From: an uncultured Clostridia bacterium
GTDB taxonomy: Bacteria; Bacillota; Clostridia; Tissierellales; Peptoniphilaceae
Length of the DNA stretch: 64,000 bases
Reading direction: 5' to 3'
Assembly: GCA_947254025.1 (NCBI GenBank)
Contig: CAMYBS010000006.1
Span: forward strand, 1-64,000
The notes beneath the pieces are model-generated. The model saw only the letters and a program-made list of their open reading frames with translations, searched no databases and had not been told where the DNA came from. Position 1 is the first letter of the stretch. Each line of letters starts with the position of its first letter. Shown one piece after another: positions 13,856 to 60,850 of the stretch. The position numbers and the translations under genes are program-made.

Positions 13856-14428
13856 TTACTCTCCATAATTTAATTTGTTTATGATAGAAAAGCCATCTAC
13901 TACTTCAATCTCGCATATCCTTGCGTTCTCTACTTTGAAATTGTAGTAAGCTTCAAGCTTGTCCACAACTATTGATAAAAGTGTCTTGATAAAACCTTCA
14001 TGCGTTATGACAACAATGTCCTCATTAAGTTTGGCCTTCTCTTTGTAAAAGTCCTCTGCACGCTCTCTTAGATCTGTGAATGATTCGCCGCCAGGAAACT
14101 TAAATGTGAAAGGCTCTTCAAAGCGCTTCTTCGTCTCTTCTGGATAGAGTTTTTCTAGCTCTTCGAAACTATGTCCTTGGAAGTCACCAAGGTCTATCTC
14201 TCTAACTCTCTCATCTACTTCATAAGTCTCAACACCAAGTAAGTCTGCTGTCTCTTGTGCTCTCAATAAGTTAGAGACTATGACTTTTTTATCTTTAAGC
14301 TCTTTATACTCATCTCTTAAAGTCTTAACCTGTGCCTTACCATTTGCCGATAGCTTAGTATCAACACGTGATGTGATCTTCTTTAAATTGTCTTCTGACT
14401 CTCCATGTCTTATTAGATAAAATTTCAT
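13856..14428 (-). CDS. cobC: Histidine phosphatase, probable alpha-ribazole-5'-phosphate phosphatase
   Basis: 190 aa, phosphoglycerate-mutase-like fold. The phospho-accepting His is in the N-terminal LIRHGESEDN motif; other family markers are the acidic EIDLGDFQG and the second catalytic His in VVITHEGF. The family is broad, but placement directly after cobS supports CobC, which removes the 5'-phosphate in nucleotide-loop assembly. It ends 1 nt before the traX-like start codon, and its last codons carry that gene's ribosome-binding site. Confidence 0.85.
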   Translation of the reverse strand: MKFYLIRHGESEDNLKKITSRVDTKLSANGKAQVKTLRDEYKELKDKKVIVSNLLRAQETADLLGVETYEVDERVREIDLGDFQGHSFEELEKLYPEETKKRFEEPFTFKFPGGESFTDLRERAEDFYKEKAKLNEDIVVITHEGFIKTLLSIVVDKLEAYYNFKVENARICEIEVVDGFSIINKLNYGE

Positions 14429-14438
14429 ATTACCCCCT

Positions 14439-15158
14439 CTAGATTATGAATAAAGCGATAGTCTCAGCGAGTTCTATGGATGCTCCCATAGTGTCACCTG
14501 TCGCTCCGTCTATCTTCTTAAGTGAAATGATGTAAATAATTATAAAGATAAGCGCCTCTACTAATAAGTATAAAAGCACTTTGTAATCATAAAGTATGCT
14601 TGCAATTATAATTACAAAGTTTGCAAAGTTTATAAGAAAGGTGCTTCTACTCTCTTTAAATGTTTTAAACAAGGTGCTACTGTCCGCGCTTTTAAAGTAG
14701 ATAAAGGCATTCATGGCTATCAACTTTGAGTATATAAATATGAATGTATAGTCCCACTTGAAGCCTTGTATTGCAATCTCTTTAAAGGCAAAAAACTTTG
14801 CTGCTAGAACTATGACAATGCTTATAACGCCAAAGCTGCCAACGCCTGGGTCCTTCATTATGGCCTTCATCCTGTCCTTGCTTCTGTTCGATAAAAAAGC
14901 ATCAGCTGTGTCGGATAGGCCGTCCATATGTAGTGCGCCTGTTATGATTAAATAAAAAATGATGTTTAATAGAGCGACTAGCTCTGCAGAAATTTTATCA
15001 CGTAAAAAAATGCTTGGAATAAACGTAAATAAAGCAATTAAAAAGCCAATAAGCGGAAAGAAAGTAAGCATAGCCCCAATATTCTTCTTATTGAAGTCTA
15101 TGCCTATATTTATTGGAACTCTTGTCATAAATTGTAAAGCTAGTATAAGTCCTTTCAC
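14439..15158 (-). CDS. cobS: Adenosylcobinamide-GDP ribazoletransferase (cobalamin synthase)
   Basis: 239 aa integral membrane protein with about six hydrophobic segments. CobS hallmarks are the N-terminal LALQFMTRVPI and, above all, the acidic DGLSDTADAFLSNRSKDRMKAIMKDPGVGSFG region, where Asp residues bind Mg2+, and the C-terminal GATGDTMGASIELAE. It joins AdoCbi-GDP to alpha-ribazole(-phosphate) at the membrane. It overlaps cobU by 4 nt and precedes cobC by 10 nt. Length is slightly under the ~245-250 aa norm, with no missing block. Confidence 0.95.
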   Translation of the reverse strand: MKGLILALQFMTRVPINIGIDFNKKNIGAMLTFFPLIGFLIALFTFIPSIFLRDKISAELVALLNIIFYLIITGALHMDGLSDTADAFLSNRSKDRMKAIMKDPGVGSFGVISIVIVLAAKFFAFKEIAIQGFKWDYTFIFIYSKLIAMNAFIYFKSADSSTLFKTFKESRSTFLINFANFVIIIASILYDYKVLLYLLVEALIFIIIYIISLKKIDGATGDTMGASIELAETIALFII

Positions 15159-15688
15159 TTTATCTTCACTCCTATGGATGCGATGACGTAGTAAACTTCA
15201 TCAGCGATTCTAGCGATGTATTGATTAATCTTGCCGTGTATGTCTCTAAAGAGCCTCGATAGTTTTGCTTCTGGCACAAGACCTGCACCTAGCTCTGATG
15301 AGACTATAATTATATCTGCATCCTTTTCTCTTAGTCTTTTGAATAAGGTTTCAAGCTCTTTAAGTGCAAGCTCTTCGACTACGGCAGCATCTTCATCTCT
15401 AATGTCCCTATCTTCCAAGTAATCAAAGAGTATGTTTGTAAGCATATTTGTTACATCATCAAGAAAATAGTATTTAGTCTTCATGGCAATGCACGCAAAA
15501 TCTTTATAAGCTTCTACGGTTTTCCACTGAGTATTGCGCCTTGCTTTATGAATTGCGATCCTTTTTTCAAACTCTTTATCAATGGCTTTAGCAGTGGCAA
15601 TGTATGTTACATCGTCAAGGCCTTTATATATATCCTCGGCGAACTCGCTCTTGCCACTTCTCGCTCCACCCATTACAAGCTTAATCAT
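15155..15688 (-). CDS. cobU: Adenosylcobinamide kinase / guanylyltransferase
   Basis: 177 aa. The P-loop GGARSGKS lies at residues 7-14 and is followed by VTYIATAKA and the conserved HKARRNTQWKTVE segment, whose His is guanylylated in the CobU mechanism. The FLDDVTNMLTN and VSSELGAGLVPE motifs complete the family pattern. It phosphorylates adenosylcobinamide and transfers GMP to it. It overlaps both the upstream Cys-rich gene (8 nt) and cobS (4 nt). Confidence 0.95.
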   Translation of the reverse strand: MIKLVMGGARSGKSEFAEDIYKGLDDVTYIATAKAIDKEFEKRIAIHKARRNTQWKTVEAYKDFACIAMKTKYYFLDDVTNMLTNILFDYLEDRDIRDEDAAVVEELALKELETLFKRLREKDADIIIVSSELGAGLVPEAKLSRLFRDIHGKINQYIARIADEVYYVIASIGVKIK

Positions 15689-15977
15689 TGTCTTTATTCA
15701 TTTCTTTTTCAAGATTAGCGATGTATTCTTCTGCTTTCTTTTGATTGTACTCTCTAAACTTATTGACGATGTAGTCGTATCCCTTTGGTCTATGAGGTAG
15801 TAAACAGTTTGAGCAGTCTTTTATACCTGCACTCATCTTGTAGTTGCCGCCGCACTCTTCCATTAGATAAAGTGGGCAGTAGCAGAACAAACAGTTGAAG
15901 TCGTCGACATTGTCAACCTTATGGCATGGCATGTAGGCACACTTCTTGTTATTAAAAAATCTATAAGAATCTTCCAT
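15681..15977 (-). CDS. Cysteine-rich small-domain protein (PF04071-like)
   Basis: 98 aa from the ATG at 15977, chosen because GGAGG sits 6 nt upstream; an upstream ATG at 15992 would place that site inside the gene. It carries about nine Cys in the pattern CAYMPCHK...CLFCYCPLY...CGG...DCSNC, followed by a helical basic/acidic tail. This matches the small Cys-rich family commonly found in cobalamin gene clusters; metal binding is likely from the Cys spacing. The biochemical role is unknown. It lies between cbiJ and cobU, overlapping both, so it is surely co-expressed with them. Confidence 0.8.
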   Translation of the reverse strand: MEDSYRFFNNKKCAYMPCHKVDNVDDFNCLFCYCPLYLMEECGGNYKMSAGIKDCSNCLLPHRPKGYDYIVNKFREYNQKKAEEYIANLEKEMNKDND

Positions 15978-16719
15978 AATTTGCCTCCACATAATTAATT
16001 ACTTCGTCTATGCTGTGCATAGCGTTCTCTTCTTCTCTTGTAATTATAACACAAATAATATTTGTTTGTAAACATGCATCAAGTTTGGCATCGGTGCCAC
16101 CGACCTTGCCACTCTCTTTGCTTACTAAGTACTTTATATCGTAGCGTTTAATCAAGGCTACGTTTTCTTCGAGTGTGAAGGGTCCCATCTGTGCAATGAT
16201 GTTCTTCATCTCTATGTGATTGTCATCGCACACCTTTATGCTCTCAGCACTTGGCAAGACTCTGTATATGAATCTGTTCTTGCCCCTCACCTTTTCAAAA
16301 TCCTTTATCCTGTTCGAGCCTGTTGTGAATAAAAAATTTTCCTCTCTATCCTTTAGCGTGTCAATATACTTAAAGGCTGCTTCATATGATGGCACTCTGA
16401 CTATGTTGTCCTTCTCTTCATAGTCCAAAATTCTTCTTGCATAACGAAGGTAGGCTATACTCATCTCTTTTGAAGCTTCACTTGCGTTCTTTGTAACCTC
16501 AACTGCGAATGGATGTGAAGCGTCTATGATCATGTCAATGCCGTGTTCCTTGATGAAGTCCTTGAAGCCGTCTTTATTCATCCTGCCCATGATAAGGTCC
16601 TTCGATGCATAGAGCTTCTTACCACTTTCAGTAGCAACAGATAAGTAAAGTTCGTACTTACCCTTAAGTCTTTCGTATATCTCTTCGCCTTCGCTTGTGC
16701 CGCCTATGATTAGTATCAT
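15961..16719 (-). CDS. cbiJ: Cobalt-precorrin-6A reductase
   Basis: 252 aa. The nucleotide-binding N-terminus is MILIIGGTSEGEEIYERL. The family's IDASHPFAVEVTKNASEA and FTTGSNRIKDFEKV motifs follow, then the C-terminal LVSKESGKVGGTDAKLDA, which is highly typical of CobK/CbiJ. It reduces the macrocycle with NAD(P)H. It overlaps cbiH by 4 nt. A C-terminal tail extends past the next gene's start. Confidence 0.95.
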   Translation of the reverse strand: MILIIGGTSEGEEIYERLKGKYELYLSVATESGKKLYASKDLIMGRMNKDGFKDFIKEHGIDMIIDASHPFAVEVTKNASEASKEMSIAYLRYARRILDYEEKDNIVRVPSYEAAFKYIDTLKDREENFLFTTGSNRIKDFEKVRGKNRFIYRVLPSAESIKVCDDNHIEMKNIIAQMGPFTLEENVALIKRYDIKYLVSKESGKVGGTDAKLDACLQTNIICVIITREEENAMHSIDEVINYVEANYGRFL

Positions 16720-17435
16720 AGCTTGTATCCTCTAGGCGTAATGAACTTGCCGTCCTTGATGTAGCTTTGACTGTTGCCAACTATGACAGTCGTGTTCATC
16801 TCACAAAAGTCATAATCAACATCATCAAGTGTACTTAGTCTGTAGTCCATGCCATCACGTAAGGCATTCTTAACCATGGCAATAGGTGTCTGCGCATCTC
16901 TATACTCTCTAATTATATCAAGTGCTTCTTTTAAATTGTTCACTCTCTTCTTGCTCTTTGGATTGTAAAGCGCGATAACCATATCAGCGTCTGCGCAGTT
17001 TCTTACCCTCTTAAGTATAAGATCCCAGTCTGTTAGTAGGTCTGAAAGACTTATAAGAGCTGTGTCATGCATTAGAGGCGCACCAACAACGCTTGCTGAT
17101 GAAAAAGCAGCGCTCACTCCAGGTACAACTTCTATGTTTATTGTCGGATCAATTTCATAAACAAGGCCTGCCATACCATATAGTCCTGAGTCACCTGTTG
17201 AGATGATGGCAACTGTCTTGCCCTTATTGTACTCATCAATAGCAAGCTGACATCTTTCTTTTTCGCCTGTCATGCCGGTCTTAATTATCTCCTTGCCACC
17301 GATGAAGTCCTCTACATAGTCAAGGTACTTTGTATACGCAACAATTGTTTGCGCTTCTTTGATCGCGTCTACCGCCTTAAACGTCATATTCTCTTTTGAG
17401 CCGGGTCCTATGCCCACAACATATAATTTATTCAT
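16716..17435 (-). CDS. cbiH: Cobalt-precorrin-3 (C17) methyltransferase
   Basis: 239 aa SAM-dependent corrinoid methyltransferase. The N-terminal GIGPGSKENMTFKA, the STGDSGLYGMAG loop and VEVVPGVSAAFSSASVVGAPL are the CobJ/CbiH pattern, with SLSDLLTDWDLILKR specific for the C17 enzyme. It performs the ring-contraction methylation. It is a single-domain form, not fused to CbiG as in some genomes. The start lies 1 nt after the cbiG stop. Confidence 0.95.
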   Translation of the reverse strand: MNKLYVVGIGPGSKENMTFKAVDAIKEAQTIVAYTKYLDYVEDFIGGKEIIKTGMTGEKERCQLAIDEYNKGKTVAIISTGDSGLYGMAGLVYEIDPTINIEVVPGVSAAFSSASVVGAPLMHDTALISLSDLLTDWDLILKRVRNCADADMVIALYNPKSKKRVNNLKEALDIIREYRDAQTPIAMVKNALRDGMDYRLSTLDDVDYDFCEMNTTVIVGNSQSYIKDGKFITPRGYKL

Positions 17436-17436
17436 T

Positions 17437-18396
17437 CTATATCTCCTCTGTTATTGAAAATGTTATTGAATCGATAATCTTCTTAGTTAATATAATCTTG
17501 CCGCCAAGTAGTTTAGCAGCCGCCTCACTAACTGCGTATGCGCCTGTGATTTTCTTAACGAAGTCGGACTTCTCCGAAACGTCCACCTCGTTGAGTTCGT
17601 CTGCCGTATAAAAAATTAGCTCTCTATCATATTTTTTGCAAAGCTCAAGCAGAGCCTCTTCGTCCTTCTTTATATCAATTGATCCAAAACGTTTAATTGC
17701 CTTTGGACTTATATTCATCTCCTTAAGCACTTCATGAAAGGCTTCTTCAAGCACATCAAAGTGAGTTCCACGTCTCAAGCCAATGCCCATATTGTATTTT
17801 TTCTTTATAATGTAAAGAGTCTTTTCATTGTCTTGTGCTTCGTAGTCTTCGCTTTGAATTATGAAGTAGTCTGCTTCGCTTTTATCACTTGTGAAATTAT
17901 CATAGTTAAAGTTAAAATCATTTGCCTTTAGATAAATTTTTTTATTATTTACTATGGCACCCATAATTATGGTAAGAGCTTCTCTAGAGCTATACGCAAA
18001 GTCATTGTCCCTTAGGTAAATGTCAAGAGCTTCGAGGCCTCTGTTGTCTGAGGCTGTAGTTATAACCGGCTCTGCGCCTATAGTCTTGGCTATATCTATA
18101 GCTAGCTCATTGGCTCCGCCTATGTGACCCGACAGTAGCGATATGACGTGTCTTGCCTTGTCATCTATAACAAGGACTGCAGGATCTGTGTACTTGTCCT
18201 TTATCAAGGAAGCAATCTTACGCACAGCTATGCCTGTTGCACTTATAAAGATGATGGTCTCAAGTGAAGACCACCTTTCTTCTAAGACCTTATCAATATT
18301 TTTATCCTTATAAAATATCTCTACATCAAGACTCTTTGCTATGGACTTAGCTATAGCAAGACCAGCTTCAGTGTAGGTGATGATGATCTTATTCAT
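17437..18396 (-). CDS. cbiG: Cobalt-precorrin-5A hydrolase
   Basis: 319 aa from the ATG at 18396, which gives the family start MNKIIITYTEAGLAIAKSI; the longer reading upstream lies in the cbiF gene. The middle region has ISATGIAVRKIASLIKDKYTDPAVLVID and VISLLSGHIGGANELA, diagnostic of CbiG, and the C-terminal GIGLRRGTHFDVLEEAF domain. It opens the delta-lactone and releases the C2 fragment as acetaldehyde. It overlaps cbiF by 8 nt. Confidence 0.94.
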   Translation of the reverse strand: MNKIIITYTEAGLAIAKSIAKSLDVEIFYKDKNIDKVLEERWSSLETIIFISATGIAVRKIASLIKDKYTDPAVLVIDDKARHVISLLSGHIGGANELAIDIAKTIGAEPVITTASDNRGLEALDIYLRDNDFAYSSREALTIIMGAIVNNKKIYLKANDFNFNYDNFTSDKSEADYFIIQSEDYEAQDNEKTLYIIKKKYNMGIGLRRGTHFDVLEEAFHEVLKEMNISPKAIKRFGSIDIKKDEEALLELCKKYDRELIFYTADELNEVDVSEKSDFVKKITGAYAVSEAAAKLLGGKIILTKKIIDSITFSITEEI

Positions 18397-19144
18397 GTGC
18401 TTTTCTGTACTCAGTCGAGAAGCTTGGGTCATATAACTTACTTCTTTCGTAACGTGCGTTAATAAATTTACCAACAAGTATAAGAGCATGCTTAGTTATA
18501 TTGTGCTCCTTGGCATCCTTAACAAGGTTTGCGATATTAGTATAAATGATTTTTTCGTCAGCCCATGTAGCTTTATAAGCAATGACTACAGGCGTATTTG
18601 GATCTTCGTAACCTTCTAGCAGTGCCTCTTGAACCTTCTCTGTAAGTGATGCCGAAAGATATATCGCCATAGATGTCTTGTGTTTAGCAAGCTCAGCAAG
18701 CTTTTCAGTCTCAGGAACCTTTGTTCTTCCTTCCATACGAGTGATGATTAAAGTTTGACTAACTTCAGGTAGTGTAAATTCTTTCTCTATCCTAGCGCAT
18801 GCAGCTGTTGCACTAGTTACACCTGGTATTACTTCGTACTTGTAGCCAAGCATGTCAAGCGCATCTATCTGCTCTTTAATTGCTCCATATATGCTTGGGT
18901 CGCCTGTATGTAGTCTAACTGTGTTTAGACCCGCCTCTTCAGCCTTTGTAAACTCTTCTATAACCTCTTCTAATGTCATCTTTGCTGAGTCAAAAACCTT
19001 TGCTCCTGTCTTTATTCCAGATAGTATATCCTTCGATACTAAGGAGCCTGCATATATAATCACGTCCGCTGCGTTTAATAATTTTAGTCCCTTAACTGTA
19101 ATTAAATCGCTGTCCCCAGGACCTGCGCCTACAAAACTAATCAT
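18389..19144 (-). CDS. cbiF: Cobalt-precorrin-4 (C11) methyltransferase
   Basis: 251 aa from the ATG at 19144, with GAGAGG 8 nt upstream; a GTG three codons earlier overlaps that site. Signature stretches are FVGAGPGDSDLITVKG, YAGSLVSKDIL, LHTGDPSIYGAIKEQ and EVIPGVTSATAACARIEKEFTLPEVSQT. This is the CobM/CbiF class and methylates C11. It overlaps cbiT by 8 nt (ATGATTAG), implying translational coupling. Confidence 0.96.
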   Translation of the reverse strand: MISFVGAGPGDSDLITVKGLKLLNAADVIIYAGSLVSKDILSGIKTGAKVFDSAKMTLEEVIEEFTKAEEAGLNTVRLHTGDPSIYGAIKEQIDALDMLGYKYEVIPGVTSATAACARIEKEFTLPEVSQTLIITRMEGRTKVPETEKLAELAKHKTSMAIYLSASLTEKVQEALLEGYEDPNTPVVIAYKATWADEKIIYTNIANLVKDAKEHNITKHALILVGKFINARYERSKLYDPSFSTEYRKAHE

Positions 19145-19685
19145 TCTTTTCACCTCTCACAATAATCACTGGATTCTCAGCTATCATCATCTCTAGCTTC
19201 TCCGCCTTAGAAACATTTACCATGTATGTGTCTATGTTCTTATAATTTTTCTTCTTTAGCAAGTCTTTAAACTCATAAGCATTGTCAAAGATGATAAAGC
19301 TCGCAATAATCGTAAATTTATTATGCTCATCAAGCTTATCCATAATGCTCTCTAAATTTTTACCAGAACCGCCTATGTAGACCTTGTTAAAGTCCACTCC
19401 GTCCATGCCCTCAGGTGCCTTGCCCTTAATGAGCTTAACATTATTAAGTCCAAATTTTTCAAAATTTTTCTTTGCTACAGCTATGGCCTCGTCATCTCTT
19501 TCGATAGTAGTGACCTCTTTACAAATGACTGCCATCTGGCAAGTGACACTGCCTGTGCCTGTGCCTATCTCCAAAACTTTGTCATCTTCGCTTACGTCTA
19601 ATAAACTCACTATTGCATTTCTCTTTATGAACTTCGTCATTGGTACTTCGCCCCTGATAAAGTCCTCATCTTTAAACCACTTCAT
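19137..19685 (-). CDS. cbiT: Cobalt-precorrin-6B C15-methyltransferase (decarboxylating)
   Basis: 182 aa Rossmann-fold methyltransferase. It starts KWFKDEDFIRGEVPMTKFIKR as CbiT does; the SAM motif is VLEIGTGTGSVTCQ, and VYIGGSGKNLESIMDKL is typical of the family. It methylates C15 and decarboxylates the C12 side chain, in partnership with CbiE, which here is a separate gene overlapping by 14 nt. In many aerobes the two are fused as CobL. Confidence 0.95.
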   Translation of the reverse strand: MKWFKDEDFIRGEVPMTKFIKRNAIVSLLDVSEDDKVLEIGTGTGSVTCQMAVICKEVTTIERDDEAIAVAKKNFEKFGLNNVKLIKGKAPEGMDGVDFNKVYIGGSGKNLESIMDKLDEHNKFTIIASFIIFDNAYEFKDLLKKKNYKNIDTYMVNVSKAEKLEMMIAENPVIIVRGEKND

Positions 19686-20262
19686 TTATAATAATCACCA
19701 CCGATAAACTATTTTCTATGTCAATGTCATCGTCTTCACCATAAGTTTTAATCACTTCACCGCTTTGCGATAAATTTGTGCCAACGATGTACTTTCTCTT
19801 TATGTTTTTCTCGTCCAAATACTTTTTAATTGTCCTTGGATTATTATCCTTGTCGCATAGAACTACAAGCTTGGCATTGTTCATTACAATGGTCTTGAAG
19901 TCGTCATCAAGCTCTCTACCATGTAGTGAATAAGTCTTTGCCTCGTTCCAATTAACTTGCACCTTGCTCATTAAGTATTGAAAAGCCGTTATAGATGGAA
20001 TCACTTCGTCAATGGCTATGCCCTCACGCTTTAGATAGTCAACTGCGCCGTAGAAGGATGGGTCGCCTGATAATAATAAAACGCCTTCTTTAATATCTTT
20101 TAGATCTTTAACAGAGACTTCTTCTATGTGATTGAATTCATCTTCAAGCTCTTCCTTAACCCTTTTGAACGCGTATACCTTAGTAGCATTCTTAATCATT
20201 CTATATGCCCTCACGCTCATATATTCACTTTTGCCTGGTCCTACTCCAACAACTATTAACAA
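19672..20262 (-). CDS. cbiE: Cobalt-precorrin-7 (C5) methyltransferase
   Basis: 196 aa with the tetrapyrrole-methylase N-terminus VVGVGPGKSEYMSVRA, the LLSGDPSFYGAVDYLK loop and VIPSITAFQYLMSKVQVNWNEA, followed by SLHGRE, as in the CbiE family. It methylates C5. It overlaps cbiD by 7 nt and cbiT by 14 nt. Its length is near the usual ~200 aa. Confidence 0.94.
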   Translation of the reverse strand: MLIVVGVGPGKSEYMSVRAYRMIKNATKVYAFKRVKEELEDEFNHIEEVSVKDLKDIKEGVLLLSGDPSFYGAVDYLKREGIAIDEVIPSITAFQYLMSKVQVNWNEAKTYSLHGRELDDDFKTIVMNNAKLVVLCDKDNNPRTIKKYLDEKNIKRKYIVGTNLSQSGEVIKTYGEDDDIDIENSLSVVIIINEVV

Positions 20263-21323
20263 TCTAATACTCCTTTTTCAAACGAATATACTTTTACATC
20301 TACATCAAGTGAGTCATCTTTTAGGTAAGTCTTGACTCTCTTTGCACAGCCTTCCTCCATAGCACATAAAACATCTTTGTAGCCGTTGTCATAAAGGTAG
20401 TTGTAGCACTTCTCAGCTGTTATAAATTCATCAACTTCTTTAATTACTTCATAAGGCTTATTCATCATCGCAAGGTAATACACGAAGGCCTCCATACGCG
20501 TATCGGCGTTCTTTGAATGCGTGTTGAAGACGCCTATCGATAACTTTGCAAACTTGCCTATGTGACCAATAAGAGTCATCTTTCTAAAACCGATTTCGTA
20601 AGCCATCTTTAGTGAGTCGCCAATGTAGTTACTAGTTAAAACAGCATTTTCTTTTATACCAATGCTCTTTGCTTCTTTAAGACCGTGACTACCCGGTGTA
20701 AGAACTATCTCCTTCGCACCCTTATCAAGATAAAGAGTTTTTATCTCCAAGTTTATGGTCTTTAGTAGAGCGTCCTCGCTCATAGGCTTGACAAGACCTG
20801 TTGATCCAATTATTGATATGCCGCCTTCTATACCAATGTTTGGGTTGAAAGTCTTCTTACCGATTTCAACACCCATAGGCGTAAATATAGTAACGTCGGC
20901 TCCCTTATCTGTTAAGAGCTCAACCTCTTTAGTAATCATCTCTCTTGGCACCTTGTTTATCGCATACTCACCCTTCTTACCGAAGATTGAATCATTTGTG
21001 TAAATACCAACGCCTACGCCACCTTTGATAATGACCTTGCCGTCATTTCTTAAAGATACTTTAGAGAAGATCTCTATGCCATTAGTCTGGTCTGGGTCAT
21101 CACCTGCGTCCTTTATAACTGAGCTTATGGCATATCCATCACCCTTCTCATTAGAATTGATGGCGACGTTTATGCACTCCTTGCAAGGCAGTACTATTTC
21201 GTATTCACCTATAGGTCCATCTAAAATGTTTGTAAGCGCTGCATGTGTTGCAACCGCTGCACAAGTGCCTGTCGTATAACCATATCTAAGGCTCTTGCCA
21301 TCAACTATATCGTACTTGTTCAT
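20256..21323 (-). CDS. cbiD: Cobalt-precorrin-5B (C1) methyltransferase
   Basis: 355 aa. The N-terminus LRYGYTTGTCAAVATHAAL is the CbiD signature. It is followed by VIKDAGDDPDQTNGIEIF, GVGIYTNDSIFGKKGEYAINKVPREMI, GISIIGSTGLVKPMSEDAL and GHIGKFAKLSIGVFNTHSK. It is the C1 methyltransferase specific to the anaerobic route. It overlaps cbiC by 4 nt. Its presence with CbiG and CbiK settles the early-cobalt (anaerobic) pathway. Confidence 0.96.
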   Translation of the reverse strand: MNKYDIVDGKSLRYGYTTGTCAAVATHAALTNILDGPIGEYEIVLPCKECINVAINSNEKGDGYAISSVIKDAGDDPDQTNGIEIFSKVSLRNDGKVIIKGGVGVGIYTNDSIFGKKGEYAINKVPREMITKEVELLTDKGADVTIFTPMGVEIGKKTFNPNIGIEGGISIIGSTGLVKPMSEDALLKTINLEIKTLYLDKGAKEIVLTPGSHGLKEAKSIGIKENAVLTSNYIGDSLKMAYEIGFRKMTLIGHIGKFAKLSIGVFNTHSKNADTRMEAFVYYLAMMNKPYEVIKEVDEFITAEKCYNYLYDNGYKDVLCAMEEGCAKRVKTYLKDDSLDVDVKVYSFEKGVLDC

Positions 21324-21946
21324 TTTCTGTATAAGATATATAAAAGTGCGTTGATTATGGACGCTGCTACGTTTGAGCCGCCCTTGTTACCAACTGTCGA
21401 GATTTGAGCTATGCCTACTTCTCTAAGCGCTTCCTTCGACTCAGCTGCTCCTACGAAGCCTACTGGCACGCCAATAACAGCCTTAGGATGAATTTTTTCT
21501 TCCTTGATCAGTTCTATGATTCTATATAGAGCTGTTGGCGCATTGCCTACTGAGTAGATGGCAATGTCTTCGCCTATAGTCTTATCTATGGCTTGGTAGC
21601 TTCTTGTTGTGCCTTTTTCCTTAGCAAGCTCCCTTACGTCGTCGTCCTTAATGTGATTAATGATCTCACAGTTAAGCTTTTTTAAGCTAGTTTCATTCAC
21701 GCCTGCCATAGTCATCCTTGTGTCTGTATAAATCTTGGCGCCGTTCTTAAGTGCATCAAGTGCTTCATCAAGGAAATTATTTCTTATATCGATTATGTTT
21801 TTATAATCAAAGTCGCCTGTCGAGTGAATCATTCTCTTCACTATAAGATTTTCAGTATCAGTAAATTTTGTTCCTACAAGCTCCTTGTCGATTATATCCA
21901 TACTTGTGTTTTCTATGTTCATAGGGTTGTTATCGTAATTATACAT
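21320..21946 (-). CDS. cbiC: Cobalt-precorrin-8 methylmutase
   Basis: 208 aa from the ATG at 21946, with AGAGG 8 nt upstream; a GTG three codons earlier is less well placed. Family motifs: VKRMIHSTGDFDY, which carries the catalytic His, then YTDTRMTMAGVNE and the C-terminal GVPVGFVGAAESKEAL. It moves the C11 methyl to C12, giving cobyrinate. It overlaps cbiA by 8 nt (ATGTATAA). Confidence 0.96.
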   Translation of the reverse strand: MYNYDNNPMNIENTSMDIIDKELVGTKFTDTENLIVKRMIHSTGDFDYKNIIDIRNNFLDEALDALKNGAKIYTDTRMTMAGVNETSLKKLNCEIINHIKDDDVRELAKEKGTTRSYQAIDKTIGEDIAIYSVGNAPTALYRIIELIKEEKIHPKAVIGVPVGFVGAAESKEALREVGIAQISTVGNKGGSNVAASIINALLYILYRK

Positions 21947-23240
21947 CCTTTTCACCTCTTAAACTATCTATCTTTTTATAAAAATACTCTTCATCTTGAA
22001 CAAAGGAAATGTTTTGCTCAATCGCAACGACTCTTTCATTTGCAAAAGAGCTTGTCCAAGTGTCATCTCTATATGGCTTTTCTACCTTAAATAAATTAAA
22101 CTCGTTATCATTTAAGCTGCTCTTATGAAATTCTTGTGAATGAAAAATTTTATCCGTATCAAAGAAAAAATTCTTTCTAAGTGCTTTTAGATATGCGTAG
22201 CCAAAGTTATGAAGCCTCTTTTCGCTCACAGCCTTGCCCTTTATAAGACCAAGCATCTTGTGCTCGTTAAAGCTTTCTGCTAAGAAGTAAGTAGCTTCTC
22301 CTTCAGTAAACACTTTTCCTCCTCTTTCATAATATTTCCTTATGCTTGCTAATGATTTAGATTTTTCTATTATGTCTAAGTGATCTTTTAAATTTCCACT
22401 GCCGATATATAATAAGTCAGCTTCAGGCACTTCTTCCTCGTCTAGCACCGAAAAGTACTTCACAGTAAAATATTTTTCTAGAAAATCAATATTCTCTTTG
22501 TAGTAAAAGTTAAATGCCTTGTCATAGGCAATTGCCACAGTAGTCTTTGACTTCGGAAAATCTATTTTATCTCCTGTCTTTGCCACTTCGAAATATTTTA
22601 AAAGTTTCTCAAAATCAATTGCCTTTTCTAATTTCGCAGCTATCCTATCGAGCTTCTCATCAAAGGCCTTGATATCGCTTGGAAGCTCTAGTCCAAGATC
22701 CTTATCCTCTATGACGAAATCCTCATCAACTTCAATATTGCCAAAAACTTCTAAGCCAAGTTCCTTCTCGACTAAGTCCTTATATATAGAATAAAGCTTT
22801 GTATGCGTCTTATTAAATATAACGCCAACTATATTATCAGCGTAGCACATAAAGCCTTTTAGCTTTGCAATAAGTGAGAACATCTCGCCCTTTGGTGTAA
22901 GCACTAAAACTGTTTTTAGTCCCAAGGCCTTTGCGTTGGCATATGACGATGCCTCCATAGTGTTATATATTCCGTCAAGATAACCCATGACGCCTTCTAA
23001 TACGCAGTAGTCTGCACACCCAATACCTACTTCAGTCGCGCCACTCTTTTGCATAAAGATGTCGACATTGCCATAGTCCCCCTTCGATGCGAATGAGCCG
23101 AGCTTTGAATCGATAAAATCGGGCCCACTCTTAAGATACTTCACCTTATTATTTTTATTTGCAAGCAGTCTTGCTAAAGCTAAACTTATAGTTGTCTTGC
23201 CGCTATTTGAATTCATAGCAGCTATGCATATGCCTTTCAC
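21939..23240 (-). CDS. cbiA: Cobyrinate a,c-diamide synthase with a degenerate glutaminase domain
   Basis: 433 aa, close to normal length. The N-terminal ATP-dependent synthetase half (1-220) looks intact: P-loop NSNSGKTT (10-17), SGPDFID, GNVD and LEGVMGYLDG. The C-terminal half aligns with the CobB/CbiA class I glutaminase domain (VAIAYDKAFNFYYKEN, then YIGSGNLKDHL). However, the family's AECGG nucleophile motif reads TEGEATYFL, with Gly314 where Cys should be, and there is no Cys at all after C132. The His of the EFHxS motif is kept (SQEFHKSS). The enzyme should still amidate the a and c acetates but cannot hydrolyse glutamine itself by the known mechanism; ammonia or a separate glutaminase is inferred. 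Confidence 0.92.
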   Translation of the reverse strand: MKGICIAAMNSNSGKTTISLALARLLANKNNKVKYLKSGPDFIDSKLGSFASKGDYGNVDIFMQKSGATEVGIGCADYCVLEGVMGYLDGIYNTMEASSYANAKALGLKTVLVLTPKGEMFSLIAKLKGFMCYADNIVGVIFNKTHTKLYSIYKDLVEKELGLEVFGNIEVDEDFVIEDKDLGLELPSDIKAFDEKLDRIAAKLEKAIDFEKLLKYFEVAKTGDKIDFPKSKTTVAIAYDKAFNFYYKENIDFLEKYFTVKYFSVLDEEEVPEADLLYIGSGNLKDHLDIIEKSKSLASIRKYYERGGKVFTEGEATYFLAESFNEHKMLGLIKGKAVSEKRLHNFGYAYLKALRKNFFFDTDKIFHSQEFHKSSLNDNEFNLFKVEKPYRDDTWTSSFANERVVAIEQNISFVQDEEYFYKKIDSLRGEKDV

Positions 23241-24253
23241 TTCTCTATCTCCCTTAGTTTTTCAAGTAAATAATCATTCTCTTCACGAGTTCTTATTGCA
23301 AGGCGCACATAGTCATTACTTATGTTCTTGTAACCTTGCATCCTTCTTATTAATATACCCTTTTCAAGCATAATCTTATACATTTCTTCGTCACAATGTT
23401 TTTTTAATCTAAGCAAATAGAAATTGGCATCGCTATCTATCATCTCAAAATTGTCATAGCTCTTATATGCTTCTTTAAGTCTTTCTCTTTCGTTTTTGTA
23501 ATACTCTTTTGTTTTTGCTATATAGTCCTCGCTTCCCTTTAATAGCCTCGATGCTTCGTTTTGTATAAAGCCTATAGACCAAGCAAGGCTTAGCTCATCG
23601 TAGTAGTCCTTAAAGTCCTTTGGCACATATGCAAAGCCAAAGCGTACTCCCGGCAAGGCAAAGGTCTTAGTCATTGCTCTAAGAACAATCACGTCCCCGT
23701 CCTTAAACAAGTCTATGCTGTCATACTCATGCATAGTAAACTCTATAAAGGCCTCGTCGAGTAAAAGAGTCGCGCCATGCTCCTTACAAATCTCTTGAGC
23801 TTTAATTAATTCTTCCTTCTTAAGCAGCCTTCCATTAGGATTATTTGGGTTAGTTAATATTAGTAGGTCGCCCTTCTTTAATATATCAAGCTCATCATAG
23901 TCAATCATAAAGTCTTTATAATTTATTCTAATCAAATCTTTTTTATAAACACTTGCTCTAAGCTCGTACTCATAGAACGAAGGGTCAAAAATAACCACTC
24001 TACTTGCCCTGTATATCGCCTTATCAATTATCTCTATAGATCCATTGCCCAAGATAATGTTAGACGCATCACAAGCCAAATAAGTGGCTACATTGTTAAT
24101 CGCTTCCCTCTGTTTTATATCAGGATAGACATTGACATAGTCAAAGTCTTCCTTGATATTAGAGAAAAGTCTTTCGTTCATATTAAATACATTGATGTTA
24201 GAGCTGAAATCTATGAGTTTTTTGTCATAATCATAAAAATTTGCTCCGTGCAT
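23237..24253 (-). CDS. cobD: Threonine-phosphate decarboxylase, PLP enzyme
   Basis: 338 aa fold-type I aminotransferase-like protein. It starts MHGANFYDYDKKLIDFSSNIN; the HGG/HGA-type start followed by DFSSN is typical of CobD. Substrate and PLP motifs are LTNPNNPNG, LLLDEAFIEF, the PLP-Lys motif MTKTFALPGVRFGF, and a C-terminal Arg (LAIRT). It makes aminopropanol phosphate, the linker to the nucleotide loop. Histidinol-phosphate aminotransferase is the main look-alike; the cobalamin context decides. It overlaps cbiA by 4 nt. Confidence 0.9.
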   Translation of the reverse strand: MHGANFYDYDKKLIDFSSNINVFNMNERLFSNIKEDFDYVNVYPDIKQREAINNVATYLACDASNIILGNGSIEIIDKAIYRASRVVIFDPSFYEYELRASVYKKDLIRINYKDFMIDYDELDILKKGDLLILTNPNNPNGRLLKKEELIKAQEICKEHGATLLLDEAFIEFTMHEYDSIDLFKDGDVIVLRAMTKTFALPGVRFGFAYVPKDFKDYYDELSLAWSIGFIQNEASRLLKGSEDYIAKTKEYYKNERERLKEAYKSYDNFEMIDSDANFYLLRLKKHCDEEMYKIMLEKGILIRRMQGYKNISNDYVRLAIRTREENDYLLEKLREIEK

Positions 24254-24256
24254 AAT

Positions 24257-25633
24257 TTACTTCCTTTTCTTTAAGTAGAATAGCGATATATAATCGTTAT
24301 CCTTACGTATTTCGTCCTCATCTGTAAGATACATTTCGTTTGGCATCGATATCCTCTTAAAATATTCTGCTTCGTAAGTATCTTTAAGTTCTAAAACAGC
24401 TTCCTTGTTAAGTGTGCCCTTCAGTATAACAGCTCTGTCAGGCTTTGCTGCCCTAACTAGCTCTGTGTTGTCACTTATCACAAGGCTCTCGCCCTTTTCA
24501 ATAAGCGGTTCTTTGTTCATTGCACTTAATGCCACAAAAGATGGCATACCATTAACAATATTTATATTTATCTTCTTATCAAGTATCTTTGTTAAGTTCA
24601 TAGGTGTTGAGAAAACCGCCGCATCACCTATAGTTACAAAGCTTACATCTCTATACTCTTTAAGCGCTTCTTCAAGTTTTATTTTTAGCTCCCTATATAA
24701 AGCATCTGTAGCATTCTTCATATCAAATGGCATCTTTATGATAGGTTTATCTTCTACATAACTCATAACTGTATCAAGAGCAAGGTTTCTGCCTCTGTTG
24801 TCAAGAACGAAGACAGCATTTGTATTTTTCAAAGTAAGTATAGCCTTAACAGTTAATAAGTCTTCATCGCCAGGACCAACACCAACTATATTTAGTAGTG
24901 GTTCTTCCATGGCCTTAACTTTTTCTATGCAGTCGTTTAAGATATAATCTTCTTCGCCAAGACCCTTGTCTATAAGTTTTACTTCGTAGCCAAGCTTTTC
25001 TAGTTTCGACTTTATTGAGTCCTCATCATCAGGAGCAATGTCCTCAAGCATGTGTACGCCTGAAACTAACATGAATGGCCTTAGATATAAAGTTTTTGTG
25101 TCTTTAGCTAAATTTTTAACAACGCTATCAAGATCAAGATCACCCTCTATACTCATCATGTGATATTTATTGTTCTTTTCTCTAAAAGCTTCGTCAATAT
25201 CTTCATATATCCTATCGGCTACATGATAAGTACCATGACCAACGTAGATGAACTCTTCGCCTTCATTTAATTTAAAGGCTGTCATGCCATCAATAAGCTT
25301 TGCTATATCCTTAGCGTTACTGATAAATGGAGTAGTAAGTCTGTTAGAAACATCTTTTAGCTTCTTATACTCTTTACCTGGAATGATGTTTGTCGAAACG
25401 ACTCTTATATCGTTATATCCAGCCTCTTTCAATTCCTTGATTGCTTCGCACTCATTATTAAAAGACATGCCTTTCTTCTCTAGTATCTTCTTAACTATCC
25501 TAGAAGTAAAGCATATCTTTATCTCGCAGTCCTTAAATTCATTTTTAAAGCCACTCACAAACTTGTCAATGACTCTTTCGTGTTCTCTAAGCCTTGTTGT
25601 ACCAAAAAAGCTTAATAGTATTGCCTTTTTCAT
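24257..25633 (-). CDS. cbiKL: Fusion: sirohydrochlorin cobaltochelatase (CbiK) + cobalt-precorrin-2 C20-methyltransferase (CbiL)
   Basis: 458 aa from the ATG at 25633, preceded by GGAGG; the frame stays open upstream only through the leader. Residues 1-240 are CbiK-like, with metal-binding His in VGHGTYHVAD (H133 and H137) and GVHMLEDIAPDDEDS (H194). After a short link (KAMEEP) residues 246-458 form a complete CbiL-type methyltransferase: GVGPGDEDLLTVKAIL, then TIGDAAVFSTPMNL, then IVNGMPSFVALSAMN. The two domains act consecutively: cobalt insertion into sirohydrochlorin, then C20 methylation. I see no stop or frameshift between them, so the fusion looks genuine. It is the first gene of the riboswitch operon. 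Confidence 0.9.
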   Translation of the reverse strand: MKKAILLSFFGTTRLREHERVIDKFVSGFKNEFKDCEIKICFTSRIVKKILEKKGMSFNNECEAIKELKEAGYNDIRVVSTNIIPGKEYKKLKDVSNRLTTPFISNAKDIAKLIDGMTAFKLNEGEEFIYVGHGTYHVADRIYEDIDEAFREKNNKYHMMSIEGDLDLDSVVKNLAKDTKTLYLRPFMLVSGVHMLEDIAPDDEDSIKSKLEKLGYEVKLIDKGLGEEDYILNDCIEKVKAMEEPLLNIVGVGPGDEDLLTVKAILTLKNTNAVFVLDNRGRNLALDTVMSYVEDKPIIKMPFDMKNATDALYRELKIKLEEALKEYRDVSFVTIGDAAVFSTPMNLTKILDKKININIVNGMPSFVALSAMNKEPLIEKGESLVISDNTELVRAAKPDRAVILKGTLNKEAVLELKDTYEAEYFKRISMPNEMYLTDEDEIRKDNDYISLFYLKKRK

Positions 25634-25654
25634 AAATTCCTCCATTATATGTAC

Positions 25655-25699
25655 ACGAGAGGAAAAGAAAAATAGGAGAAGCGCGCCTTTTCCTCTCGT
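25655..25699 (-). promoter_or_regulatory. 13-bp-stem hairpin between riboswitch terminator and cbiKL start
   Basis: Perfect inverted repeat ACGAGAGGAAAAG / CTTTTCCTCTCGT with a 19-nt loop. It ends about 10 nt before the GGAGG of cbiKL and is not followed by a T-run, so it is not an obvious terminator. It could stabilise the processed 5' end or modulate translation. Confidence 0.6.
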
Positions 25700-25710
25700 C
25701 GGTTTTTTGG

Positions 25711-25744
25711 AAAATAAAAATCCTTGAATAGGGGTATCAAGGAT
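25711..25744 (-). terminator. Riboswitch-controlled terminator
   Basis: Stem ATCCTTGA / TCAAGGAT with a short loop, followed by TTTTATTTT. It lies between the cobalamin aptamer and cbiKL and is the likely expression platform. Confidence 0.8.
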
Positions 25745-25800
25745 ATAAAACATACATATTTAGTAAGTTTTTCCTTCCCACCGAAGAAGTAACTTTATAC

Positions 25801-26005: not shown

Positions 26006-26965
26006 TTATTTTAATATTAATTTTAAATATATAACAGCGATCACTAATACTAGCAAGGCTAGTGCCTTATACATCGCTTTTATGGTGAAATAAACGCCAT
26101 TTTTATTTACTTCGCCATCTATATCGCCAATATATGGTTTATCGACTATCTTAGAAAAATATTTGTGTGGTCCTCCTAAGCGAATTTTTAAGAGTCCAGC
26201 TATAGGCGCTTCAAGGAAGGCACTATTTGGACTTGCGTGTGCATATCTATACTTAAAAAACGTTTTGCACGCGTAGGCGATGTTTTTATTGAAGATGTTC
26301 GTGATTAGTATTAGCAGCGCACTTAATCTTGCTGGCACTAGATTGACTAGGTCATCAATCTTTGCTGCGAAAAAACCAAGCTCTGCATATTTTTCGTTCT
26401 TGTAGCCCCACATCGAGTCCATGGTGTTGATGAATTTATACACTAAGCCAAGTGGTGTATATATCGCGATGTAGATAAGCGGCGCGATGACACCATCTGA
26501 AGTGTTTTCTGCGACTGTCTCAATAGTCGCTTTAAGTATTTCTTCTTCACTTAATTCGCTTGTGTCGCGGCCAACTATGTAGGAGAGTCTCTTGCGTCCT
26601 CTCTCTAGCGAATTGCCTAGCTCTTTTACGACCATATCTGCCTCGAAGTGAAGTGAGCGCGCTGCAAGGCAGACATAAACCATGTATGAAGTGTAGATTA
26701 AATACAAATATTTATTGATCTTAAATAATATTATTGCAAAGCATCCGAATAAAAATGCAAGGCTAATGTTGAAGAGTACACAGACTAGTCCAAGCACTTT
26801 CAAAAAGCTGCCTCTTGCGTTTGTCCTTCGAATTAATTTTTCTTCAAAGTTAATAATATTACCCATAACCTTAACTGGATGAAAAAAGTTATATGGGTCG
26901 CCTAAGATTAAATCAAGCACCACGCCTATAAGTATGGCGATAAGTTTATAAGCCAAGTATTGCAT
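26006..26965 (-). CDS. cbiB: Adenosylcobinamide-phosphate synthase
   Basis: 319 aa membrane protein. Family markers: LDLILGDPYNFFHPVKVMG, then LERGRKRLSYIVGRDTSELSEEEILKATIETVAENTSDGVIAPL, then FINTMDSMWGYKNEKYAELGFFAAKIDDLVNLVPAR, then YRYAHASPNSAFLEAPIAG. It has about four to five transmembrane segments. It attaches aminopropanol (phosphate) to adenosylcobyric acid. It overlaps cbiP by 20 nt and ends the upstream block. Confidence 0.96.
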   Translation of the reverse strand: MQYLAYKLIAILIGVVLDLILGDPYNFFHPVKVMGNIINFEEKLIRRTNARGSFLKVLGLVCVLFNISLAFLFGCFAIILFKINKYLYLIYTSYMVYVCLAARSLHFEADMVVKELGNSLERGRKRLSYIVGRDTSELSEEEILKATIETVAENTSDGVIAPLIYIAIYTPLGLVYKFINTMDSMWGYKNEKYAELGFFAAKIDDLVNLVPARLSALLILITNIFNKNIAYACKTFFKYRYAHASPNSAFLEAPIAGLLKIRLGGPHKYFSKIVDKPYIGDIDGEVNKNGVYFTIKAMYKALALLVLVIAVIYLKLILK

Positions 26966-27785
26966 TTAATTTATCTATATCGATGGCTTTTTCGAAGACA
27001 TCAGCGAGTCTATCGATCTCATTATTCATTGAATCGTGCTCTGCCATGTGAGCATTGACTTTTTTCTCATAATCATGAAGAGAGTCTTCGTCCGCTATCT
27101 CAAGCTTTGTATATGGCACTATGCCGAGACAGTCAAGACCTGTTAGCTCGTGAAGCTTTTTGATGCCCTCATCAAGTAGGCTCGCATCGCCCCTAAATTT
27201 ATTGATGATGTAGCCTTTTATCCTCGCTCTATCTTTTTCATCAAGTATCATGTATGTGCCGTAGATTGACGCAAAGACGCCGCCCTTGTCAATGTCAGCG
27301 ACGATGATGGCGTTTGTGTCAGCAAGTTCAGCCATGCCAGTATTCACGAAGTCATCTTCAAGTAGGTTTATCTCAGCAGGTGAACCAGCTCCTTCTATAA
27401 TCATGACATCATATTTCTTTTCAAGCTCTTCAAAAACATCTTTTACCTTAGCCTTTAGCTCTTTCTTAATCGAGTAGTATTCCTTAGTATTCATGTGCTT
27501 ATATAATTTGCCAAGCACATAAACATCGCTACCTGTGTCTGACGATGGCACTAGAAGTATCGGGTTCATGTACTCATCCGCCTTTATGCCTGCTGCGTAG
27601 GCTTGTATGGCTTGTGCATTACTAATAAGTTTTCCATCTTGAAGCTTAAAAGAGTTTCTTGACATGTTTTGCGATTTGAACGGACATACCTTGTAGCCCT
27701 TGTCCTTGTAGTAGCGGCACATAGCAGTCGCTATCGTCGACTTGCCTGCTGACGATGTCGTGCCGTATATCATTATCTTTGCCAT
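26946..27785 (-). CDS. cbiP: Cobyric acid synthase lacking the glutaminase domain
   Basis: 279 aa where CbiP/CobQ normally has about 490-510. The synthetase half is intact: P-loop TTSSAGKST, then PFKSQNMSRNS, NAQAIQAYAAGIKADEYMNP, MIIEGAGSPAEINL, ADIDKGGVFAS and IINKFRGDASLL. It runs to GIVPYTKLEIADEDS, the usual end of the domain. The ~200-residue class I glutaminase domain that should follow is absent. Yet the last ~30 residues (NEIDRLADVFEKAIDIDKL) resemble the normal C-terminal tail of CobQ, which points to an internal deletion in the lineage and not an early stop. It should amidate b, d, e and g side chains, drawing nitrogen from ammonia or a partner. Confidence 0.92.
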   Translation of the reverse strand: MAKIMIYGTTSSAGKSTIATAMCRYYKDKGYKVCPFKSQNMSRNSFKLQDGKLISNAQAIQAYAAGIKADEYMNPILLVPSSDTGSDVYVLGKLYKHMNTKEYYSIKKELKAKVKDVFEELEKKYDVMIIEGAGSPAEINLLEDDFVNTGMAELADTNAIIVADIDKGGVFASIYGTYMILDEKDRARIKGYIINKFRGDASLLDEGIKKLHELTGLDCLGIVPYTKLEIADEDSLHDYEKKVNAHMAEHDSMNNEIDRLADVFEKAIDIDKLNAILGL

Positions 27786-28193
27786 TTAAAATTCCTCATC
27801 ATTGTATTCAATAGTACCTAAATCAGTTTCTATCGAGATTAAATTTTTCTTCCACTCTCTGTACTTAGTCACTTCTTCGCCTATAGCCTTAACTAATATT
27901 GAAACACCAAATATTTTCGACGCTATGATGAAGAAAGCGTTTTGCTTGTATGAATTTGGATACAAAACTATAAGTAAGCCTGAAATTATAAATAGCATGT
28001 TCTTCTTCTCAATTCCCTTGTACTTGCCATTGTAATAATCTTTAACAAGATCTAAAAAGTCATTAATAAGTTCTTGGTACTTTGCTAAATCAGTGTTCGT
28101 TTTGATGGCTTCGCCGATGTCACCAATCTTGTTCATGGCTTCATCCTTGTCGAAATTACCAATGTTCATGTCTTTTAAAAAATCAAAGTTCAT
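27786..28193 (-). CDS. Small membrane-associated protein of unknown function
   Basis: 135 aa, not confidently recognised. An acidic helical N-terminus (1-60) is followed by two hydrophobic segments (about 65-80 and 85-105) and a polar tail. The section from YYNGKYKGIEKKNMLFIISGL to EVTKYREWKKN is faintly like the YkvA/DUF1232 pattern (Y..Y..I...T......LLY..P...Y..W), but the PxDLIPD core is absent. It sits between the sensor kinase (2-nt gap) and cbiP (adjacent), so it is co-transcribed with both. A membrane partner of the kinase is possible but unsupported. Confidence 0.65.
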   Translation of the reverse strand: MNFDFLKDMNIGNFDKDEAMNKIGDIGEAIKTNTDLAKYQELINDFLDLVKDYYNGKYKGIEKKNMLFIISGLLIVLYPNSYKQNAFFIIASKIFGVSILVKAIGEEVTKYREWKKNLISIETDLGTIEYNDEEF

Positions 28194-60843: not shown

Positions 60844-60850
60844 ATCACAC

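Follow-up and report, generated by a model that had tools for sequence, protein, structure and literature searches.

The glutaminase of a two-domain cobyric acid synthase (CbiP) should release ammonia from glutamine and pass it through a channel to the synthetase, where the activated side-chain carboxylate receives it. Passages of reviews treat both amidations of the cobamide pathway as dependent on glutamine (PMC7242693), and a passage of another review states that CobB accepts glutamine or ammonia (PMC8123684). Single-domain NAD synthetase takes free ammonia as its donor in vivo, as its authors showed; passages of that 2012 paper count NadE, should it use ammonia in vivo, as just the second such case, glutamine synthetase (GS) being the first, give GMP and CTP synthetases as 100% glutaminase-fused in 730 and 800 genomes, and do not contain the terms cobyr, CobQ or CobB (PMC3376133). 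According to excerpts of two further papers, human CPS1 has Ser in place of the glutaminase Cys and uses external ammonia (PMC4655335), and the glutaminase GatD resembles CobQ and forms a chain of its own beside MurT (PMC6085368). Here we describe a 64,000-nucleotide stretch of DNA from an uncultured Clostridia bacterium (Tissierellales; Peptoniphilaceae; contig CAMYBS010000006.1, positions 1 to 64,000; hereafter, the window), in which a short CbiP without a glutaminase domain is encoded beside a cobyrinate a,c-diamide synthase (CbiA) whose glutaminase domain has no catalytic Cys. Our searches of open-licence papers found no description of a short glutaminase-free CbiP and returned no papers on inactive glutaminases of GMP or CTP synthetase, on a cobyric acid synthase lacking its amidotransferase domain, or on cbiP together with Treponema denticola; for cobyric acid synthase and Tissierella they gave one paper, whose title points to another subject.

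An earlier note, made from the sequence alone, had placed a 279-residue CbiP at the coordinates of Table 1, which are right, the strand being minus, and had read it as a synthetase domain that runs to the usual DEDS end and then passes into the family tail, a description borne out by profile matches and by a tail hidden Markov model (HMM). The NCBIfam model NF001989 (480 positions) matched residues 3–240 with its positions 2–240 only (353.6 bits, cut-off 273) and TIGR00313 matched residues 4–261 (317.1 bits, cut-off 309.9), the cut-offs of both equivalog models being exceeded. Pfam and NCBIfam scans of the window CbiP gave no match to a GATase_3 domain with its Cys-His, and glutamine hydrolysis is therefore not expected. 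In the alignment, the linker (residues 237–254) occupies the place of ~200 glutaminase residues. The tail HMM, built on 44 full-length CbiPs, the window CbiP excluded, and covering the final 57 positions of their alignment, aligned residues 255–279 to model positions 33–57 (E 4.4e-9, search size 1) and matched 61 of 61 short CbiPs tested at i-E < 0.01, indicating that the C-terminal tail of the short forms is the family tail. An AlphaFold model of the short CbiP had a mean predicted local distance difference test (pLDDT) score of 89 and rendered the tail as two confident helices (250–267 and 270–277) after a poorly predicted linker. With this model as query, Foldseek ranks 1–5 in the PDB were all dethiobiotin synthetases, and a dethiobiotin-synthetase-like fold is predicted for the synthetase domain; phmmer found 0 relatives in the PDB at E 0.001. 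The synthetase motifs were near-invariant across 25 short CbiPs, the domain being intact. When the whole window was searched as 1153 open pieces, a CbiP-glutaminase HMM returned nothing significant (best match, CbiA, E 0.43), in agreement with the earlier observation that no remnant of the domain lies before the overlapping cbiB. A split gene with a downstream glutaminase open reading frame (ORF) was ruled out, none being present in the window or in the loci scanned, where three weak short-ORF matches were CbiA pieces of G168, G167 and G229 (G and L numbers designate genomes and loci, P numbers proteins, f and g numbers families and genera).

CbiA reached the same state by a different route, as had been proposed: its catalytic Cys was lost, whereas CbiP underwent a domain deletion. 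The GATase_3 domain of the window CbiA is still recognized (1.6e-11), with Gly314 in place of the catalytic Cys, so that its earlier description as Cys-less stands; its NCBIfam scores fall short of those required by the CbiA equivalog models (248.4 of 254). Its structural model had a mean pLDDT of 89.6, with 79–96 in the GATase_3 blocks. Among four congeneric sequences, the ratio of nonsynonymous to synonymous substitution rates (dN/dS) was 0.041–0.067 in the synthetase part and 0.075–0.18 in the dead glutaminase part, which is relaxed, still constrained.

We propose that the window CbiP is probably an ammonia-type cobyric acid synthase that has lost its glutaminase domain and stands beside a pseudo-glutaminase CbiA. 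A C-terminal class I glutaminase domain would have been lost from CbiP, with a short linker now joining the family tail to the synthetase. Having no glutaminase domain, the synthetase would have to draw its ammonia from solution, and CbiA, which keeps the glutaminase fold but no catalytic Cys, should also work on free ammonia; single-domain NAD synthetase and human CPS1, respectively, are fitting precedents. We infer that short CbiP is catalytically competent and that ammonia is its donor; filed as a CbiP by its synthetase and tail, and lacking the glutaminase feature of the family, it would be a variant form of ammonia type. Bacteria of this group are amino-acid fermenters in ammonia-rich places, and dependence on ammonia may be tolerated or even favored in such bacteria, many of which have no GS.

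An alternative that we regard as unlikely is that glutaminase activity is supplied in trans, by a separate subunit, GatD-like or of another class, that docks on short CbiP and delivers ammonia as GatD does for MurT. Two-subunit amidotransferases exist, as passages on MurT/GatD document (PMC6085368), and the tail, kept in every short form tested, might serve for docking. The search for GATase_3 covered 68 whole genomes, of which 59 have short CbiP. A stand-alone, GatD-like GATase_3 was absent from the three congeners of the window's organism (G001, G052, G053), in each of which CbiA was the sole GATase_3 match, and the GatD-like partner that the earlier note had suggested looking for was rejected on this ground. 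Seven of the 59 short-CbiP genomes had no GATase_3 match at all (G220, G228, G233, G235, G244, G245, G246), and six (G146–G149, G221, G222) had matches over the cut-off beyond CbiA and its pieces, which speak for a partner in trans; the strongest of these, both in family f8, were a 255-residue ORF in G148 (148 bits) and a 169-residue ORF in G147 (94 bits), weaker ones of about 200–220 residues occurred in all of G146, G147, G148, G149, G221 and G222, and ten or so further genomes had matches below the cut-off. A PF00117 search of G001 returned, besides GuaA, two further proteins of 239 and 245 residues with no assigned role, which would also suit a partner. Against this alternative stand the result in the congeners, the absence of any CobQ-type glutaminase ORF of at least 120 residues from the loci scanned and of any glutaminase gene from the cobamide operon members at 13856–21955, and the consideration that one partner could hardly serve the several unrelated Cys-less amidotransferases of related genomes.

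The pairing of short CbiP with Cys-less CbiA extends well beyond the window. CbiA was found in 99 of the 249 genomes of the order and read in 95 of them; where CbiA could be read, its Cys was lost in 39 of 47 short-CbiP genomes, compared with 5 of 43 genomes whose CbiP is intact. The two losses co-occur strongly but not universally, and the expectation that they always go together failed in both directions, since 8 of the 47 short-CbiP genomes keep the CbiA Cys and 5 of the 43 intact-CbiP genomes have lost it. In the family alone, Cys-less CbiA accompanied 17 of 17 short CbiPs, that of the window counted among them, and 7 of 13 long ones. Two genomes, G004 and G071, have a full-length CbiP that is itself without Cys, and CbiA is Cys-less in both. 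Across 43 genomes with both glutaminases lost (hereafter, double-loss genomes; two of family f39 included), the residue at the CbiA Cys place was Gly in 25, Ala in 14 and Ser in 4, and on the CbiA tree Cys presence required 6 changes, or 13 when the residues were kept apart. Five genomes, all of genus g2 (f1), showed CbiA Cys loss without CbiP loss, and CbiP shortening without CbiA Cys loss occurred in f12, f15, f75, f82 and G243. In a control contig scan of at least 80 named loci, nearly all CbiPs were full-length (one short, L089), the CGG motif was kept in 78 of 80 CbiPs (exceptions, L045 and L089), and ECGG was kept in all 33 loci with a CbiA ORF. Among the best 120 CbiAs listed as nearest to one Tissierella sequence, 118 were Cys-less. 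Genome G168 (L216, L281) has CbiP and CbiA in two copies each, both CbiPs being short and one CbiA being interrupted by in-frame stops.

Short CbiP was also present in 15 genomes where no CbiA was found (G146–G149, G220, G221, G228, G233, G235, G244–G246, G269, G421, G589; their loci include L269–L278, L280 and L282), perhaps reflecting corrinoid salvage, another diamide source, or assembly gaps. A 272-residue CbiP ending in the family tail was likewise found, with GS and no CbiA found, in G563 of the class sample. The 15 genomes, 11 of them with a GS homologue, make it possible for short CbiP to occur outside the full pathway, and would fit a second alternative in which the enzyme does something else or less, amidating only some side chains or serving the salvage of incomplete corrinoids with the glutaminase dispensable. 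We consider this improbable: in the window, cbiP belongs to a de novo operon and immediately precedes cbiB, which needs cobyric acid, and its NCBIfam scores exceed the equivalog cut-offs.

That cbiP is a degenerate remnant cut by deletion and being lost, or a sequencing or assembly artefact, is hardly credible, since its only support is the length of the usual enzyme (about 490–510 residues), and the same gene occurs in three further genomes of the genus as well as in many families, with a dN/dS of 0.011–0.044 among four congeneric sequences that indicates purifying selection on a gene that is not decaying; assembly error and decay were therefore rejected. All three congeners examined had one cbiP match each, 97–99% identical to that of the window, so that the second cbiP that the earlier note had considered was not found in them, and the same short gene in these congeners, in other genera and in a cluster (P0001) that unites 491 member sequences at 90% identity also disposes of the sequencing error it had considered. 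The length survey of the family that it had proposed yielded matches in 39 of 130 genomes, of which 29 were judged by score to be true CbiPs; 16 of these are short (279–313-residue frames) and 13 long (465–543).

Of the 249 genomes of the order, 114 carried a CbiP match; CbiP was read in 105 of these 114 and was short in 59 of the 105, in families f1, f5, f8, f12, f14, f15, f16 and f18. A class sample of 391 genomes, overlapping with the order, yielded 127 with CbiP, and short CbiP occurred outside the order in f39, f59, f75 and f82. A quick CbiP tree, which carries a long-branch warning near the window's row, placed 5 changes between short and long forms, at least 4 of them on well-supported branches, and joined 50 short sequences, the window's included, in one well-supported group across f1, f5, f14, f15, f16 and f18. 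A single old short-CbiP lineage thus dominates, and smaller separate lineages appear in f8 with f12, in f75, in G243/G245/G246 and in G168. A 5.8-billion-protein database gave 7996 matches at E 1e-20, of which the best 120 were all 270–299 residues long; because 7996 of 7998 scored candidates passed this threshold and candidates reached about 488 residues, no total of short forms is given. Keratinibaculum, Tepidimicrobium, Ezakiella and Treponema denticola were among the matches listed, and the database name of one short form (P0055) is 'adenosylcobyric acid synthase (glutamine-hydrolysing)'. The database spread and the CbiP tree point to an old inherited form rather than to a loss that took place in this organism. 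In the spirochaete Treponema denticola (P0099, P0111, P0115), the short CbiP is 55–56% identical to that of the window, which suggests transfer or wide spread.

The glutaminase losses were compared with the presence of GS. We sought PF00120 in 80 and then 44 genomes, all 14 control genomes matching, and counted the 102 genomes for which the state of CbiP, CbiA and GS was established, 11 of them chosen by hand from the class sample. A GS homologue was missing from 38 of 43 double-loss genomes vs 5 of 59 others (Fisher p 4e-17, kinship ignored), from 36 of 41 vs 5 of 50 within the order alone, and from 32 of 37 vs 3 of 54 at completeness of at least 90%. The homologues are of several kinds: canonical GlnA of about 440–490 residues, a type of ~700 residues (f1 and elsewhere), and a type of ~640 residues far below the GlnA cut-off. 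Genome G246 (L326) has a 633-residue homologue with 132 of the 429 bits of that cut-off, and the 692-residue homologue of G003 (L327) matched no NCBIfam model at 1e-20. With the 640-residue type excluded, GS was missing from 41 of 43 vs 17 of 59 genomes (p 2e-12), and with canonical GlnA only, from 42 of 43 vs 28 of 59 (p 1e-8); GlnA is thus nearly always absent in double-loss genomes, yet also in many others. Double-loss exceptions with a GS homologue were G004, G062 (frame interrupted by a stop), G168, G205 and G222; exceptions without GS among the others were G136 (71% complete) and G189, G191, G193 and G194 (short CbiP, CbiA Cys kept). Outside these counts stand the 15 short-CbiP genomes without CbiA, three genomes that have CbiA but no CbiP, two more for which no GS test was made, and seven genomes of the class: G328 and G362, whose CbiP frames are masked or broken, G563, and four relatives with long CbiP. 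Genus g112 of f39 offers an instructive contrast: G302 has a long CbiP, a Cys-bearing CbiA and GS, whereas in G498 and G597 (88% and 77% complete) CbiP is short, CbiA has Ala and no GS was found; their congener G421 has a short CbiP, no CbiA found and a 640-type GS homologue. On the CbiA tree the CbiA of G498 groups with those of the order, making gene transfer likely.

Several results weigh against our interpretation. Independent-pair tests on two quick gene trees left about 1–2 informative pairs, with a median p of 0.5 to 1, although nearly all informative pairs were in the expected direction. A GS homologue was present in 7 of 11 genomes with short CbiP and the CbiA Cys kept, it was lacking in 4 of the 15 short-CbiP genomes without a CbiA found, and three well-assembled f12 genomes among the 68 combine short CbiP, Cys-bearing CbiA and GS; short CbiP thus often stands beside a GS homologue, and GS absence by itself is no explanation of the domain loss. 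The cbiP frame of G060, a short form, contains one TGA, a glutaminase partner of a class other than GATase_3 may serve short CbiP, and no assay of a short-form enzyme was found in the searchable literature. GS loss as the sole driver was rejected, short CbiP occurring with a GS homologue in f8, f12, f75, f82, G243 and others. Because the Fisher test treats relatives as independent and informative pairs are few, the association of double glutaminase loss with GS absence is suggestive and no proof: it is not significant after relatedness and depends on which homologues are counted. The shared switch of nitrogen source proposed in the earlier note is accordingly favored without being proven: the double loss goes with GS absence, a link that does not outlast the correction for relatedness, and ammonia is the presumed donor.

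Similar losses were seen in other amidotransferases of related genomes. GuaA, PyrG and CarA were read in part from 20 PF00117-searched genomes (low scorers and controls), with PyrGs added, and because this sample is partly score-selected and biased the following fractions are not rates. The glutaminase Cys was lost in 5 of 13 GuaAs read (G071, G097, G206, G211, G214), in 7 of 21 readable PyrGs (G073, G086, G087, G097, G098, G219, G231) and in 3 of 4 CarAs read (G003, G071, G130), the fourth (G152) being named by length and score only. Three CarAs, three GuaAs and three PyrGs among the Cys-losers were named by NCBIfam above cut-off; the loci are L330–L336, L339–L341, L357 and L359–L362. All GuaA and PyrG Cys-losers come from genomes without a GS homologue and two of the three CarA losers from genomes with one; the Cys is kept in GuaA of other genomes without GS (e.g., G001, G047 and G192). 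Two proteins of 358 (G192) and 354 residues (G206) were rejected as CarA, that of G192 having no CarA match and that of G206 being a like protein. The CTP synthase N-domain PF06418 was found in none of three genomes of the window's genus (G001, G052, G053) and five of g5 (G046–G050). Cys loss in GMP synthetase, CTP synthetase and CarA is perhaps an order-wide pattern. Tentatively, and at somewhat less than an even chance, we suggest that much of this Tissierellales-like order and at least one outside genus moved from a glutamine to a free-ammonia economy, with GS lost and the glutaminase halves of CbiP, CbiA, GMP synthetase, CTP synthetase and carbamoyl-phosphate synthetase repeatedly knocked out by Cys substitution or domain deletion, the cobamide enzymes being most often affected in what was read.

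In the window, cbiP heads a run of cobamide genes extending to about 13856, a near-complete de novo operon (Table 1). Pfam names CbiC, CbiD, CbiG, CbiJ, CobU and CobS, and E, T, F and H were assigned by order and methylase domains. In one ORF of this run a CbiK chelatase is joined to a CbiL-like methyltransferase. Abutting the cbiP start is a 135-residue ORF (27786–28193, minus strand) without a Pfam or NCBIfam match. Farther away (57548–61765, minus strand), a selB-selA-selD block was recognized by eye, in which the selD frame seemingly lacks its N-terminus and may contain an in-frame TGA (selenocysteine).

Table 1 Features of the cobamide gene run in the window, with the domains of CbiP and CbiA.
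Feature	Position	Strand	Basis or remark
cbiP, cobyric acid synthase without glutaminase domain	26946-27785	minus	ORF, ATG start, 279 aa; NCBIfam match
CbiP ATP-dependent synthetase domain, residues 1-236 to DEDSL	27078-27785	minus	Pfam/NCBIfam, AlphaFold, Foldseek
CbiP linker, residues 237-254	27024-27077	minus	alignment; block pLDDT about 60
CbiP C-terminal family tail, residues 255-279	26949-27023	minus	tail HMM; helices, block pLDDT 88-97
cbiB	26006-26965	minus	overlaps cbiP end by 20 nt
cbiK-cbiL fusion (cobalt chelatase + methyltransferase)	24257-25753	minus	Pfam CbiK and TP_methylase above cut-off; NCBIfam CbiK, CbiL below
cobD-like threonine-phosphate decarboxylase	23237-24253	minus	TIGR01140 best, below cut-off
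cbiA, cobyrinate a,c-diamide synthase with pseudo-glutaminase domain	21939-23240	minus	Pfam, NCBIfam, alignment
CbiA GATase_3 domain, residues 234-388, fold kept, no catalytic Cys	22077-22541	minus	Pfam, alignment, model
CbiA Gly314 codon at catalytic Cys place	22299-22301	minus	alignment
Remaining anaerobic cobamide genes: cbiC, cbiD, cbiE, cbiT, cbiF, cbiG, cbiH, cbiJ, cobU, cobS, phosphatase	13856-21955	minus	

A natural glutaminase-free CbiP and a Cys-less CbiA, together with Cys-less GuaA, PyrG and CarA in relatives, would add several ammonia-using families at once and would give a clean test of when cells abandon glutamine channelling, and the short CbiP would offer structural work a minimal cobyric acid synthase. 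Among known systems, full-length CobQ/CbiP (NF001989, TIGR00313) shares with the window CbiP a homologous synthetase and tail, the cobamide operon and the place before cbiB, but has the GATase_3 domain that the window CbiP lacks. MurT of the MurT/GatD pair is, like short CbiP, a synthetase without a glutaminase of its own, but the three congeners have no GatD-like partner. For the window CbiA, human CPS1 provides a model in which the glutaminase fold is kept and its Cys replaced, although it is a different enzyme that needs N-acetylglutamate as activator. Single-domain (type N) NadE resembles short CbiP as a synthetase without a glutaminase domain or a recognizable partner (for short CbiP, GATase_3 partners only were sought); its synthetase and reaction are unrelated, however, and single-domain NadE has been proposed to be ancestral, whereas short CbiP looks derived by domain loss.

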